A stretch of 64,000 bases of DNA. Source: Mesoterricola silvestris (GTDB lineage: Bacteria > Acidobacteriota > Holophagae > Holophagales > Holophagaceae). The first letter of the stretch is position 1, and each line of letters begins with the position of its first letter. The translations under genes and the position numbers were made by a program. Positions 3,474 to 50,215 of the stretch are shown here, piece by piece. The notes below the pieces were generated by a model. That model was given only the letters and a program-made list of their open reading frames with translations. It did no database searches and had not been told where the DNA came from. The stretch covers positions 3,766,001-3,830,000 of the forward strand of contig NZ_AP027080.1 of NCBI RefSeq assembly GCF_030295405.1. The letters are read 5' to 3'.

Positions 3474-4799
3474 ATGATCCCCAAGGCCCTCACTCCGCTT
3501 GCCGCATGCCTGCTAATGGCCGGCGTCCAAGCCAACGCCCAGCTCAAACCGGCCACGCAGAATGCCGAGGATCAGATGAGCAAGCTGTACATGCAGGTTT
3601 CCAACCTCCTGTTCGGCCCCGCCAACCTGAAGAGCATGCTCGTGCTGCAGCGGCCCGGGACCCCGCTGCCCGACGATTTCGGGGAAATGTCCCAGGAGCA
3701 GCGGGTGATGCTCAACGAGATCGTGGACGTGGTGCCCATGGTCAACCCCAACTACGTGGCCAACGGCAACATGCGTTATTCGCAGATCTTCAAGGCCATC
3801 GCCCAGAACGCCCAGCCGACGGTGAAGATCACCCTCACCCCGGCGGAGGAGGCCGAATTGAAGGCCGCCCAGGATTATGTGAAAGACGTGGGCCATAGCA
3901 AATTGTACGAGGCAGGGCGGAACAAGTACTGGGAAGCCGTCGCGAAGGTCGAGGCCGCCTCCCAGAATGGCAAGGATGCCCCCTCCAGCCTGCGGGCTGT
4001 CATGGCCGCGGCCAAGCAGGATTGGGACACCCAGGGAGGCCGGGTGGATTATGAAAGGCGCGTGGGCACCATCCGCACGCTGGGCTCCAAGAGCGGCGAG
4101 GCCTACTGGACGGCCCTGAACCAGCGCCTGGACGCCGCGGCCACGGAAACCAACTACGGCACCTTTTTCTATCCCCAGCCCAAGGACTGGAAGAGCACCG
4201 ACGGCTGGACGGAGGTCCGCTTCGACAACAACACGAAGGTGGACGAAAACCAGATGAGCCGGGAAGCCATCAAGGCCAGCGTCAAGGGCAAGCATTCCTG
4301 GTTCAGCATCGACGCGGCCTTCAGCAAGACGGACTTCAGCGCCAGCTCGCTCATGGACCACAAGGACCTGAAGATCTCGTTCAAGGTCAAGCGCGTGAAC
4401 ATCTACCGGACCTGGTTCGACGACCTCGTCCTGAAGAACGACGCCTGGATGCTCCCGGCCACGGTGTCCTTCAAGGCCATCTCCTACGGCAACCTGCTCT
4501 CGAATGCCCTCAAGCCCTGCGCCATGCCCCTCTACACCTCCGCCCTCCTTCTCGTGAAGGACCTCAAGCTCGAAACCGCCTTGAGCCAGGCGGAAATGAG
4601 CGAATACCAGCACAAGATGGACATCAAGGCCAAGATCGGCCTCGGGCCCTTCACCCTTTCGGGCAGCTACAGCAAGCACGAGTCCGGCGGCAAATCCCAC
4701 TCGGCCTTCACGGCCACGGGCGTGAGCGCCCCCGATATCCAGATCCTGGGCCTGGTGGGCACGGCTCCCGACCGGTCTCCCGCCTCCACGGTCAAGTAG
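3474..4799 (+). CDS. Exported protein of unknown family, paralog A
   Basis: A 441-residue protein. The start at 3474 is preceded by GGAG with 6 nt spacing and gives a clean Sec signal (MIPKALTPLAACLLMAGVQANAQ, cut near residue 23). I do not recognise the family. It is a paralog of the next gene. Shared landmarks, in order, are VPMVNPNYVANGNM, a helical Ala/Lys-rich middle, DGWTEVRF, WFSI, a KVKRVNIYRTWF block, CAMPLYTSALLLVKDLKLE, and a C-terminal GLGPFTLSGSY...PDIQILGLVG. The C-terminal half alternates short strands and could be a beta-rich domain. It is first in a run with paralog B and a secretin, so a cell-surface or secretion-related role is plausible but unproven. Confidence 0.7.
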   Translation: MIPKALTPLAACLLMAGVQANAQLKPATQNAEDQMSKLYMQVSNLLFGPANLKSMLVLQRPGTPLPDDFGEMSQEQRVMLNEIVDVVPMVNPNYVANGNMRYSQIFKAIAQNAQPTVKITLTPAEEAELKAAQDYVKDVGHSKLYEAGRNKYWEAVAKVEAASQNGKDAPSSLRAVMAAAKQDWDTQGGRVDYERRVGTIRTLGSKSGEAYWTALNQRLDAAATETNYGTFFYPQPKDWKSTDGWTEVRFDNNTKVDENQMSREAIKASVKGKHSWFSIDAAFSKTDFSASSLMDHKDLKISFKVKRVNIYRTWFDDLVLKNDAWMLPATVSFKAISYGNLLSNALKPCAMPLYTSALLLVKDLKLETALSQAEMSEYQHKMDIKAKIGLGPFTLSGSYSKHESGGKSHSAFTATGVSAPDIQILGLVGTAPDRSPASTVK

Positions 4800-17275: not shown

Positions 17276-17623
17276 GTGAACAGGTTTGTTCTGGCCATCC
17301 TTCTCTGCCCCAGCCTCACCCTGGCGGCCCAATCCCCCGCCCGGCCCGCCCCCCAGCCGGGCTCGGACCCCATCCTCGTGGGCGACTACCGGCCCACCCC
17401 CGTGGACCAGCCCCAGGTGCGGGAGGCCAAGGATTTCCTCCAGCAGAAGCTCCCCGGCATGACCCTCCTGGACGTGACCCGCGCCTACACCCAGGTGGTG
17501 GCCGGCCTCAACGTCAAGCTCCAGGCCAAGGTCCTGGACGAGGAAGGGACCATGGACTGGGAGTTCGTCGCCTTCCAGGGCCTCGACGGCACCTGGCACC
17601 TGACTTCGGCGAACCGGATCTAG
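17276..17623 (+). CDS. Small exported protein with a cystatin-like motif
   Basis: A 115-residue protein starting at GTG with GGAG upstream, and a signal peptide (MNRFVLAILLCPSLTLAAQ). The mature part has the helix-strand order of a cystatin fold: a helix (QVREAKDFLQQKLPG), then TLLDVTRAYTQVVAGLNVKL, in which QVVAG matches the protease-wedging QxVxG loop of cystatins. KAKV-like strands and a Trp-containing end (TMDWEFVAFQGLDGTWHL) follow. Inhibition of papain-type cysteine proteases is the family expectation, but bacterial members are poorly characterised and the N-terminal conserved Gly is not certain. A palindromic repeat begins 10 nt after its stop. Confidence 0.65.
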   Translation: MNRFVLAILLCPSLTLAAQSPARPAPQPGSDPILVGDYRPTPVDQPQVREAKDFLQQKLPGMTLLDVTRAYTQVVAGLNVKLQAKVLDEEGTMDWEFVAFQGLDGTWHLTSANRI

Positions 17624-17633
17624 GTCGCGTTCA

Positions 17634-18089
17634 TCGTACATGTCCCGGCCCATCGTCAGGGATTCGCTGACGCAGGCAAGCTGCGTCAGCGCAAAGCTCA
17701 GGCCACGGGGTTGAGCGGGAGTGTTGGCACGCTCCGGCTTCGATCGGAGTTGCGGGCATCTGGAGCAGGGGGCTCCCCGGAGGGGCCTAGGTCCGGGGGG
17801 CCCGCTTCAAGTTTCAGGGAGTGGGGAACGGGTCGCGCCGACGTTGATCACTTCATGTGAAGCCGCTTGGAAACCAGCGTCGGCGCGGAACCAGGGCCAA
17901 CCCGGAACACTTGGAGCGGGTCGCCGGGGCATAGGCCCATCCGGGGGGCCCGGGCGCCGCAGCTTGGACGGGTTGTCCGTCGAAGCCGGAGTGTGGCAAC
18001 ACTCCCGCTCAACCCCGTGGCGTGAGCTTTGCGCTGACGCAGCTTGCCTGCGTCAGCGAATCCCTGACGCGGGTCTGGGACACGGGCGA
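17634..18089. repeat. 456-bp palindromic intergenic element (element 1)
   Basis: This fills the 531-bp gap between the cystatin-like gene and the thiolase gene. The core arms 17654-17743 and 17980-18069 are reverse complements at 87 of 90 positions. Weaker pairing continues outward to a terminal motif (TCGTACATGTCCCGG at 17634-17648, its inverted counterpart at 18075-18089). Inward it ends in a perfect 10-bp stem (CGCGCCGACG at 17834-17843 with 17878-17887). All pairs share one centre near 17861. Each arm also contains its own 10-bp hairpin (CGCTGACGCA with TGCGTCAGCG). No convincing open frame lies inside. It behaves like a MITE or REP-type non-autonomous repeat, and its RNA would fold into one long hairpin between convergent genes. 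Confidence 0.8.
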
Positions 18090-18163
18090 ATCAGTCCCGA
18101 ACAGGGCCGGGACACGGGCGAATCAGTCCCGAACAGGGCCGGGACGCGGGCGGATCAGTCCCG
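18077..18163. repeat. 32-bp direct tandem repeat, 2.7 copies
   Basis: Two identical 32-bp units (18077-18108 and 18109-18140) are followed by a partial third (18141-18163) with two changes in 23 bp. Each unit holds the inverted terminal motif of element 1 (GGGACACGGGCGA) and the sequence TCAGTCCCG. The latter is the reverse complement of the last codons and stop of the thiolase gene (CGG GAC TGA). The third copy is the actual end of that gene. The array is therefore a triplication of the element boundary together with the thiolase 3' tip. There are no spacers, so it is not CRISPR. Confidence 0.85.
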
Positions 18164-19447
18164 CTCCAGGAGCAGGGCCCCTCCCTGGCCGCCTCCGATG
18201 CAGAGGCTGGCCATGCCCCTGCGGGCGCCGGTGCGGCGGAGGACGTGGAGGAGGTGGAGGACGATGCGGGCGCCGCTGCAGCCCACGGGATGGCCCAGGG
18301 CGATGCCGCCGCCGTCCACGTTCAGGCGCTCCGGGTCGATGGGGGCGAAGGGGGGGGTGCCCAGTTCTTCGCGGCAGTAGGGTTCGTCCGCCCAGGCTTC
18401 CTGGCAGGCCAGCACCTGGGCGGCGAAGGCCTCGTTGATCTCCCAGAAATCCACATCCCCGGTGCCCAGGCCCCGGCGCCGGAGGAGGGGGGCCATGGCG
18501 TGCACGGGACCCAGGCCCATCTGGCTGGGTTCCAGAGCGGCCCAGTGGCCGTCCACGATGCGCCCCAGGCTGGTGAGGCCGTGGCGGCGCATGGCCGGTT
18601 CGCTGGCCAGCAGGAGGCAGGCGGCGCCATCGGAGATCTGGGCGCTGTTGCCGGCGGTGACCCGGCCGTGGGGGGCCTGGAAGGCGGGCTTGAGACGGGC
18701 GAGACCCGCCGGGTCCGCATCCCGCCGCAGGCCCTCGTCCCGGTCCCGGAGGATCCCGTCGTCGCCGGCCAGGGGGGCCAGTTCCTCCAGGCGGCCCCCG
18801 TCCTGGGCCCGGGCCAGGCGGCGGTGGCTTTCCAGGGCGAAGGCGTCCATGCGCTCCCGGGTGAGGCCGAAGCGGGTGGCCAGGAGTTCCGCCGTCTGCC
18901 CCATGCTCAGACCGCTGAGGGGATCCGTGAGGAGCAGGGCCAGGCCGGAAACGGGCCTGAAGTGGGCCGGCCGCAGCCGGGCCGCCACCTTCGCCTTGGC
19001 CCAGGGGCCGCGGGCCCGGGCCAGGTCCGCCAGGATCCGCACCATCCCGTCCCCCACCAGCACCGGGGACCGGCTCATGGCTTCCGTGCCCCCCGCCAGG
19101 ACCAGGTCCGCCCGGCCGCAGGCGATGTCCAGGGCGGCGGCATCGATGGCCTGCATGCCCGAACCGCAGTTCCGTTGCACGGTCCAGGCCGGCACCGCCT
19201 TCCCGCACCCCAGGCGCAGGGCCACCAGGCGGGCGATGTTGGCCTCGTGGGCGCCGGGCAGGATGCACCCCAGGATGACCTCGTCCAGGTCCCCGGGCCC
19301 GAAGGTCTGGCGGGCCAGGAGGGCCTTGCCCGCCGCCACCGCCAGATCCGAGGCCCCGAAGGGGCCGGGGATCCCCCGGGCCTTCAGGAAGGGGGTGCGG
19401 GCCCCGTCCACGATGTGCACGGGTCTCCCCGGGGGGTAGGCGCCCAT
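18155..19447 (-). CDS. Acetyl-CoA acyltransferase (thiolase)
   Basis: A 430-residue thiolase for the last step of fatty-acid beta-oxidation, cleaving 3-ketoacyl-CoA with CoA. Family motifs are complete: VQRNCGSGMQAID with nucleophilic Cys94, DFWEINEAFAAQ, NVDGGGIALGHPVGCSGAR (catalytic His and second Cys region) and MASLCIGGGQGGALLLE at the C-terminus. The ATG at 19447 lies 2 nt after the stop of the acyl-CoA dehydrogenase gene, so the two form an operon. The length and the FadE partner suggest a FadI-like enzyme. No enoyl-CoA hydratase/3-hydroxyacyl-CoA dehydrogenase (FadJ/FadB) gene accompanies it here. The stop codon sits inside a tandem repeat. Confidence 0.92.
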   Translation of the reverse strand: MGAYPPGRPVHIVDGARTPFLKARGIPGPFGASDLAVAAGKALLARQTFGPGDLDEVILGCILPGAHEANIARLVALRLGCGKAVPAWTVQRNCGSGMQAIDAAALDIACGRADLVLAGGTEAMSRSPVLVGDGMVRILADLARARGPWAKAKVAARLRPAHFRPVSGLALLLTDPLSGLSMGQTAELLATRFGLTRERMDAFALESHRRLARAQDGGRLEELAPLAGDDGILRDRDEGLRRDADPAGLARLKPAFQAPHGRVTAGNSAQISDGAACLLLASEPAMRRHGLTSLGRIVDGHWAALEPSQMGLGPVHAMAPLLRRRGLGTGDVDFWEINEAFAAQVLACQEAWADEPYCREELGTPPFAPIDPERLNVDGGGIALGHPVGCSGARIVLHLLHVLRRTGARRGMASLCIGGGQGGALLLERD

Positions 19448-49692: not shown

Positions 49693-49738
49693 AAGCCCGG
49701 GTAAGTATTCGCACGTGTCCCGGACGTTCGCCCCGGTT

Positions 49739-49767
49739 CGTTGCTGCGGGCCAAGCCCGCAGCAACG
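49739..49767. other. 12-bp perfect hairpin in element 2
   Basis: CGTTGCTGCGGG (49739-49750), loop CCAAG, CCCGCAGCAACG (49756-49767). A very stable stem 46 nt after the toxin stop. It lacks a following T run, so termination is uncertain. Protection of the toxin-antitoxin transcript 3' end is possible. Confidence 0.75.
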
Positions 49768-50059
49768 GAAGGCTCTCACCCCATGGTTGGGCCTGTGTTT
49801 TCACCTAGTGGCCCCGACCCACCTCAGGGCCTCTCTTCGAGTGCTGCGAGGAGGGCCTTGGACCGCGCCAACGCTAATCAGGAAACGCGACCTCGTCCCG
49901 AACCAGCCCTTCAGCAGGTCTGGGCTCGAGCTAACTTCAAAAGATTGCGGGCGGTGCAGACCCTGTTCCATTCGGCCTGGACCTTCGCCAACGGGCCAGG
50001 CTTTACCTCAAATACGCCTTCCAGGCCCTTTTCGGCTCCCCCTGGTCGTTAGGCGGTTC

Positions 50060-50128
50060 CGTTTTCGTTGAATCAGCCTGACCCGGAGCGACGAAGGAGC
50101 GCAGGGGCAGACTGATTCAACGAAAACG
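50060..50128. other. 17-bp perfect hairpin in element 2
   Basis: CGTTTTCGTTGAATCAG (50060-50076) pairs perfectly with 50112-50128 around a 35-nt loop rich in GGAGCG-like purine runs. It lies near the right end of the element, about 120 bp before the TetR gene. Such stem-loops are typical of REP-type repeats, and a structured RNA is the alternative. Confidence 0.75.
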
Positions 50129-50215
50129 ATCGGGGCGCCTATCTGGAACACGTGCGCTTCCTTGGCCACCCTCCTAACCCGTCCCCCGCCCGGAAAATTC
50201 AGGCTTGAGAATTCA

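Follow-up and report, generated by a model that had tools for sequence, protein, structure and literature searches.

The described systems closest to the locus reported here are bacterial MITEs, of which RUP, Correia and Nezha are examples, REP/BIME/REPIN repeats and the insertion sequence families IS701 and IS630/Tc1-mariner. Members of the IS701 family produce 4-bp duplications, and after the duplication their ends follow the consensus ---YACT-Y--YR (PMC2266710). A literature search covering IS701 with YTAG, MITEs at convergent genes and two-way terminators returned, among the papers listed, no description of the family presented below, which may still have been published.

The locus occupies positions 17634-18089 of the window (the whole stretch of DNA that was analysed, 64,000 nucleotides from Mesoterricola silvestris) and lies, as the initial annotation had it, in the intergenic space between convergent genes, with the plus-strand gene ending at 17623 and a minus-strand thiolase-like gene ending at 18155. 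It also proved to be gene-free as claimed, since the open reading frames listed across it were all dropped by a codon-based gene caller. The arms first described (17654-17743 and 17980-18069) do match in inverted orientation at 87 of 90 positions, and their proposed common centre is borne out by an inner stem (17834-17846 with 17875-17887) that is centred as the outer arms are. The term 'near-perfect palindrome' suits the outer 110 nt of each arm and not the full 456 bp, over which ungapped self-complementarity amounts to 274 of 456 positions. The features, including those of a second copy in the same window, are:

17634-18089, no strand: whole palindromic element, a copy of the A sub-family, whose arm is shared with at least 90 host loci
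17634-17743, plus strand: outer left arm, an inverted match to the right arm (17980-18089) at 100 of 110 positions; matched by the covariance model
17980-18089, minus strand: outer right arm, complementary to the left arm; matched by the covariance model
17665-17691, plus strand: local hairpin H1 of the left arm, with an 11-bp stem and a 5-nt loop; covariation in 42 arms of 21 elements
18032-18058, minus strand: local hairpin H1' of the right arm; covariation across arms and elements
17692-17720, plus strand: left strand of stem P2; pairing of 84.3% with its own partner against 68.9% with the partners of other elements (z 9.0)
18003-18031, plus strand: right strand of stem P2, from the own-partner pairing test
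17770-17789, plus strand: left copy of a conserved inner block (GGCTCC..GGCCTA), from alignment A2
17932-17951, minus strand: right copy of the conserved inner block, from alignment A2
17834-17846, plus strand: left strand of the central stem, a nearly invariant block in alignment A2
17875-17887, plus strand: right strand of the central stem, an inverted match, from alignment A2
17620-17623, plus strand: CTAG that includes the TAG stop of the left gene, a putative left target-site remnant by stop-codon statistics
17276-17623, plus strand: left neighbour, a 115-aa gene facing the element, from the open reading frame list and the gene caller
18155-19447, minus strand: right neighbour, a thiolase-like gene, named by reading the sequence and not by family search
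18072-18167, plus strand: three tandem 32-nt units running from the element's right end
49693-50177, plus strand: second window copy, of the B sub-family, with its model match at 49708-49818, CTAG on the left and TTAG read from the right

This copy has a CTAG at its left and none at its right side. The tandem 32-nt units at 18072-18167 extend from the element's right end into the flanking DNA, which looks like a duplication of the junction. Across the whole window there was no Rfam match above the gathering score.

When the element was compared by BLAST with the host genome (4.99 Mb in a single contig), 93 matches were obtained. The first 39 regions were chosen from the BLAST matches. The two arms of 21 copies, 42 arms in all, then served to build a covariance model of the outer 112 nt, and from its list 54 more regions were chosen, among which the second sub-family (B) came to light. 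This model gave at least 145 host matches at E<=1 and at least 129 at E<=1e-3, the latter in at least 90 loci, and both arms reached E<=1e-3 in at least 39 loci; these counts are lower bounds, the search having scored 150 of 4,295 candidates in the host and 40-49 in each other genome. The 21 aligned copies are 428-520 bp long. A elements have the hairpin CGCTGACGCAG-loop-CTGCGTCAGCG, or a variant of it, in each arm, and in B elements the hairpins of the two arms differ. Pairwise identity among A copies averages 67.5% and does not exceed 79%. Each of the nine copies in the B group is 92-94% identical to its nearest fellow, a near-identity that indicates recent spread, and the A copies are older than the B copies. 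The earlier suggestion of a transposon-like repeat is thus upheld by about 90 dispersed loci, by empty orthologous sites and by the presence of CTAG at both ends in a subset. The outcome that had been set against it, a single fixed copy with compensatory changes, does not describe a sequence found in many copies, although compensatory changes do occur, and an assembly artefact is unlikely in view of the divergence between copies and of a host genome assembled into a single contig.

Not every copy is complete. Short forms consist of only the outermost stem and one hairpin (L049, L056, L155, L158 and others), and at L117, L131, L136 and L143 one arm has been lost and its position is taken by other DNA, either an A+T-rich stretch or repeats rich in GGGATGAA. 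In the second window copy, the right-arm H1 is replaced at 50050-50125 by a longer hairpin of unrelated sequence with a CGTTTTCGTTGAATCAG stem. A gene at L038 is not internal to an element: it has a degenerate full element on one side and a half element on the other. As a marker for the family, the pattern GTGTCCCGGAC on its own was useless, with 333 hits where the reversed control had 363.

Our home-made gene caller, which uses codon log-odds, assigned a neighbour on each side at 88 of the 90 loci; a few of the retrieved regions overlap slightly. At these 88 scorable loci the flanking genes are convergent in 54 cases, codirectional in 31 and divergent in three, against 17 convergent, 176 codirectional and 55 divergent among the 248 other adjacent pairs in the same regions (54/88 against 17/248 convergent; Fisher odds ratio 21.6, p 2e-24). 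The arm model ends a median of 8 bp from the facing stop codon (quartiles 1 and 17; 139 stops), and at 19 of the 23 two-armed convergent loci neither gap between stop and arm exceeds 35 bp. Of the genes facing an element, 96 of 139 have TAG as their stop, compared with 71 of 205 other genes from these regions that are 100 codons or longer (p 5e-10), and 64 of 139 end in CTAG, compared with 34 of 205 (p 6e-9); at the 54 convergent loci, CTAG stops are present on both sides in 11, on one side in 27 and on neither in 16. The tips of A and B elements read GAGCCYGGCTACGTAAT, with CTAG followed by GAGCCYGGCTACGTAATCG, and in B copies both ends often start TAG-GAGCCYGGCTACGTAATCG. The host has 38 occurrences of the tip pattern and three of its reversed control, and the pattern is present in all five relatives of the genus that were searched. 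When the element goes in at CTAG, a stop codon is left to each side; this would explain the close fit between convergent genes, and the bias towards convergent ends would be strengthened by selection against copies landing in genes and promoters.

A genome of the same genus (G004) is colinear with that of the host but inverted, and 1.6 of its 5.25 Mb were examined. Twenty host element loci have both flanks in order there; none of the 20 syntenic sites has an arm match, and the sole match in the 1.6 Mb is weak and lies elsewhere. At L040, the empty G004 site reads TTCTAGGCTTCC, with two gene stops meeting in TTCTAGG, and in the host TTCTAGG stands on either side of the element. Some G004 sites, such as L138 and L145, differ by more than the element. 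Of 60 genomes compared by BLAST, four have matches, and these four, the host among them, belong to a single genus; model matches are found in at least five of 77 genomes of the family and at least five of 93 of the class, the host included; the model-positive genomes are four of one genus plus a draft genome of another genus with one weak hit (E 1e-4). Three elements in relatives adjoin genes that also flank a host element (a fourth flank match, L162 with L138 at 72%, was taken as paralogous and left out). Two of the pairs, of which L035/L165 is one (384 of 581 positions alike over element and flanks), hold clearly different elements, so element sites seem to be reused, and the different elements at these two shared sites may reflect reinsertion or replacement. 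At L369 of G002 (3575-3606), an intergenic palindrome of about 30 bp has nothing but two facing tips and looks like all that is left of a copy that was deleted.

We consider it probable that the element is a non-autonomous, gene-free, MITE-like palindrome of about 430-540 bp with two long inverted arms, which would target CTAG and would later have become a shared 3' boundary; the MITE reading itself we hold firmly. The arms would derive from the ends of an earlier transposon that lost its gene by deletion. A putative transposase acting in trans would insert the element at CTAG, the sequence that would form where two convergent TAG stops meet, and CTAG, or the TA inside it, would be duplicated, with both genes keeping their stops. 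The inserted element may then act as the shared 3' boundary of both convergent genes: at many loci little else lies between the stops, so that both transcripts must end in the element or run through it.

The parentage of the MITE we assign to IS701 only loosely. G004 contains a 1,224-bp element with 48-bp perfect terminal repeats between CTAGs and with arms alike at 79% over 219 columns; within it lies a broken IS701-type transposase of the DDE_5 family (PF13546, E 1.4e-24, one internal stop), and its outer tip departs from the published IS701 end at a single position. By eye, L162 matches the IS701 consensus except at position 4. The intact IS701-type elements of the genus have CTAG at both borders. 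The A and B tips (GAGCCYGG..) do not match that consensus by eye, and because of this IS701 parentage is not established for the window copy. The host genome has no match to PF13546 (DDE_5) or to PF01797 (Y1_Tnp), and no autonomous partner with the same ends was found in it; the broken G004 element has similar arms and other tips. Many MITEs have outlived their autonomous partner, and its absence here therefore tells more against the IS assignment than against the MITE reading. L353 was rejected as a candidate partner, because the gene inside it is that of a different insertion element, which is nested at CTAG.

A second MITE, of about 275-300 bp and bordered by CTAG, with the tip CTAGGAGCCTGTCTACGTAATAGGAGGCCCC, is present in the host and its relatives (L360 762-1036, L361 830-1102, L338 2917-3220). 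In G004, three intact IS701-type elements, at L338, L339 and L341, stand precisely at the CTAG that borders this second MITE, which has the same GAGCCTG tip.

CTAG borders would be left both by IS701, as a 4-bp repeat, and by IS630, as TA in CTAG, and descent from an IS630/Tc1-mariner element that duplicates the TA inside CTAG is the alternative we take most seriously, while thinking it rather improbable. A preference for TA in CTAG has been reported for that group (in a title cited in PMC2170065), and a transposase that reads as IS630-like lies between CTAGs inside a related G004 MITE. The sole transposase found inside arms of this type is, however, DDE_5, and the IS630-like ends are by eye unlike the A and B tips.

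As a single strand the element folds at -381.8 kcal/mol as RNA (z -24.4), and as DNA it gives z -25.3, with 0 of 100 shuffles as good in either case. The initial annotation had proposed both a hairpin within each arm and one rod-like hairpin for the whole RNA. The former stands, for the local H1 is kept by compensatory changes (42 arms, 21 elements). In the alignment of 21 A copies, 99.4% of cells are paired under the local hairpins, and seven pairs have changed on both sides; if the same columns are paired as a rod instead, the figures are 96.1% and four. As a control for coupling, each left arm was paired with right arms from other elements; against this control H1 reaches z 10.7 in local and z 3.9 in rod pairing, P1 z 5.0 and block 91-113 z 4.0, and arm-arm coupling is z 1.7 for the inner block 143-185 and z 0.7 for the centre. 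Such controls only partly remove the relatedness between elements, and the P1 and P2 pairs are RNAalifold's choice on the same alignment, which favours them in the coupling test. The single rod survives in part: it is the minimum-energy fold of the window copy and of most A-type copies, but covariation prefers the local arm hairpins. B copies fold mostly within their arms (22-96 bridging pairs, against 119-216 in A copies), so the long rod is not common to the whole family. The covariation supports a predicted fold composed of an outer stem, two side hairpins and a second stem, cross-like and not a plain rod. The outer arms (P1, H1 and P2) may have been kept as a two-way 3'-end structure, as a transposase substrate, or as both. 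Whole-arm copying within an element is unlikely, as the inner blocks are without arm-arm coupling and the outer blocks are coupled. Selection on one strand as the working RNA was also set aside, since G.U mismatches are not clearly above A.C (GT 130 and TG 117 against AC 123 and CA 84; expected from other elements GT 144.8, TG 107.9, AC 133.6 and CA 85.8), and for that reason no strand bias is shown.

The compensatory changes in H1 and the coupling of P1 and P2 would also be expected of a fixed structured RNA or two-way terminator that arose in place and was copied by gene conversion, its mobility being incidental. At four syntenic sites, moreover, G004 has by eye a hairpin at the position of the host element, with a T-run at L033 and L136 and without a clear one at L110 and L148. 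Such an origin is nevertheless unlikely, given that this one species has about 90 loci and its relatives few, and given the clean empty site at L040 and the near-identical B copies at unrelated loci.

We give equally little credence to a giant REP dimer or REPIN, in which two inverted REP-like hairpin units would be spread by a Y1 (RAYT) transposase. The element does comprise two hairpin units in inverted orientation, its A and B forms resemble homo- and heterodimers, and REPs too lie less than 20 bp from 3' ends between convergent ORFs, according to PMC3733652; yet the host lacks a Y1_Tnp (PF01797) match, the units are about 205 nt and not 20-40 bp, no GTAG or CGTC tags were recognised by eye, and a subset has CTAG on both ends. 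Least credible is an inverted duplication made at a local deletion joint, a proposal that draws on an enoyl-CoA hydratase-like gene (named by reading the sequence) which follows the thiolase in the same direction in L167, L168 and G004, a fad gene missing from 17624-18155, where the element follows the thiolase directly, for the same arms at about 90 loci mean that the palindrome was not made here and that the local deletion alone is particular to this site.

Returning to the MITE, we raise tentatively a further step, in which, within one lineage, a mobile palindrome came to serve as the 3' end of dozens of convergent gene pairs: after insertion at CTAG the old terminator would have been lost and the four-way fold (outer stem, two side hairpins, second stem) selected, to be read from either strand as a symmetric two-way terminator. 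No intrinsic terminator, defined as a G+C-rich hairpin with a T-run, was found in 17500-18250. To target the four bases where two genes end, leaving both stops intact, would be a simple harm-avoidance rule for a mobile element, and if the arms also end transcription, the family would be a natural case of transposon-driven terminator replacement for which the element-free relatives are ready controls. Long palindromes are usually unstable in bacteria, and about 90 palindrome loci in one chromosome, together with graded shortened forms, would make a good system for studying palindrome loss.

In relation to known systems, the element resembles REP, BIME and REPIN sequences in its palindromic units, inverted pairs and position at 3' ends, often between convergent genes (PMC3733652), and differs in being some ten times larger, bordered by CTAG and housed in a genome with no RAYT gene. 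With IS630/Tc1-mariner elements it shares the CTAG preference (TA in CTAG, from the title cited in PMC2170065), although no such transposase was seen directly within these arms. The likeness to the IS701 family (DDE_5) lies in the CTAG at both ends of the genus's IS701 copies and in the broken DDE_5 gene within similar arms, whereas the element's arms of about 205 nt contrast with the short ends of IS701 and the A and B tips depart from its consensus. Compared with bacterial MITEs, the element is unusual in its size of about 450 bp, in arms that fill almost all of it, in the hairpin inside each arm, in its strong restriction to convergent gene ends and in having no autonomous partner found in the host; like them, it is short and gene-free with inverted ends, and it is present in many intergenic copies, with empty sites in relatives.
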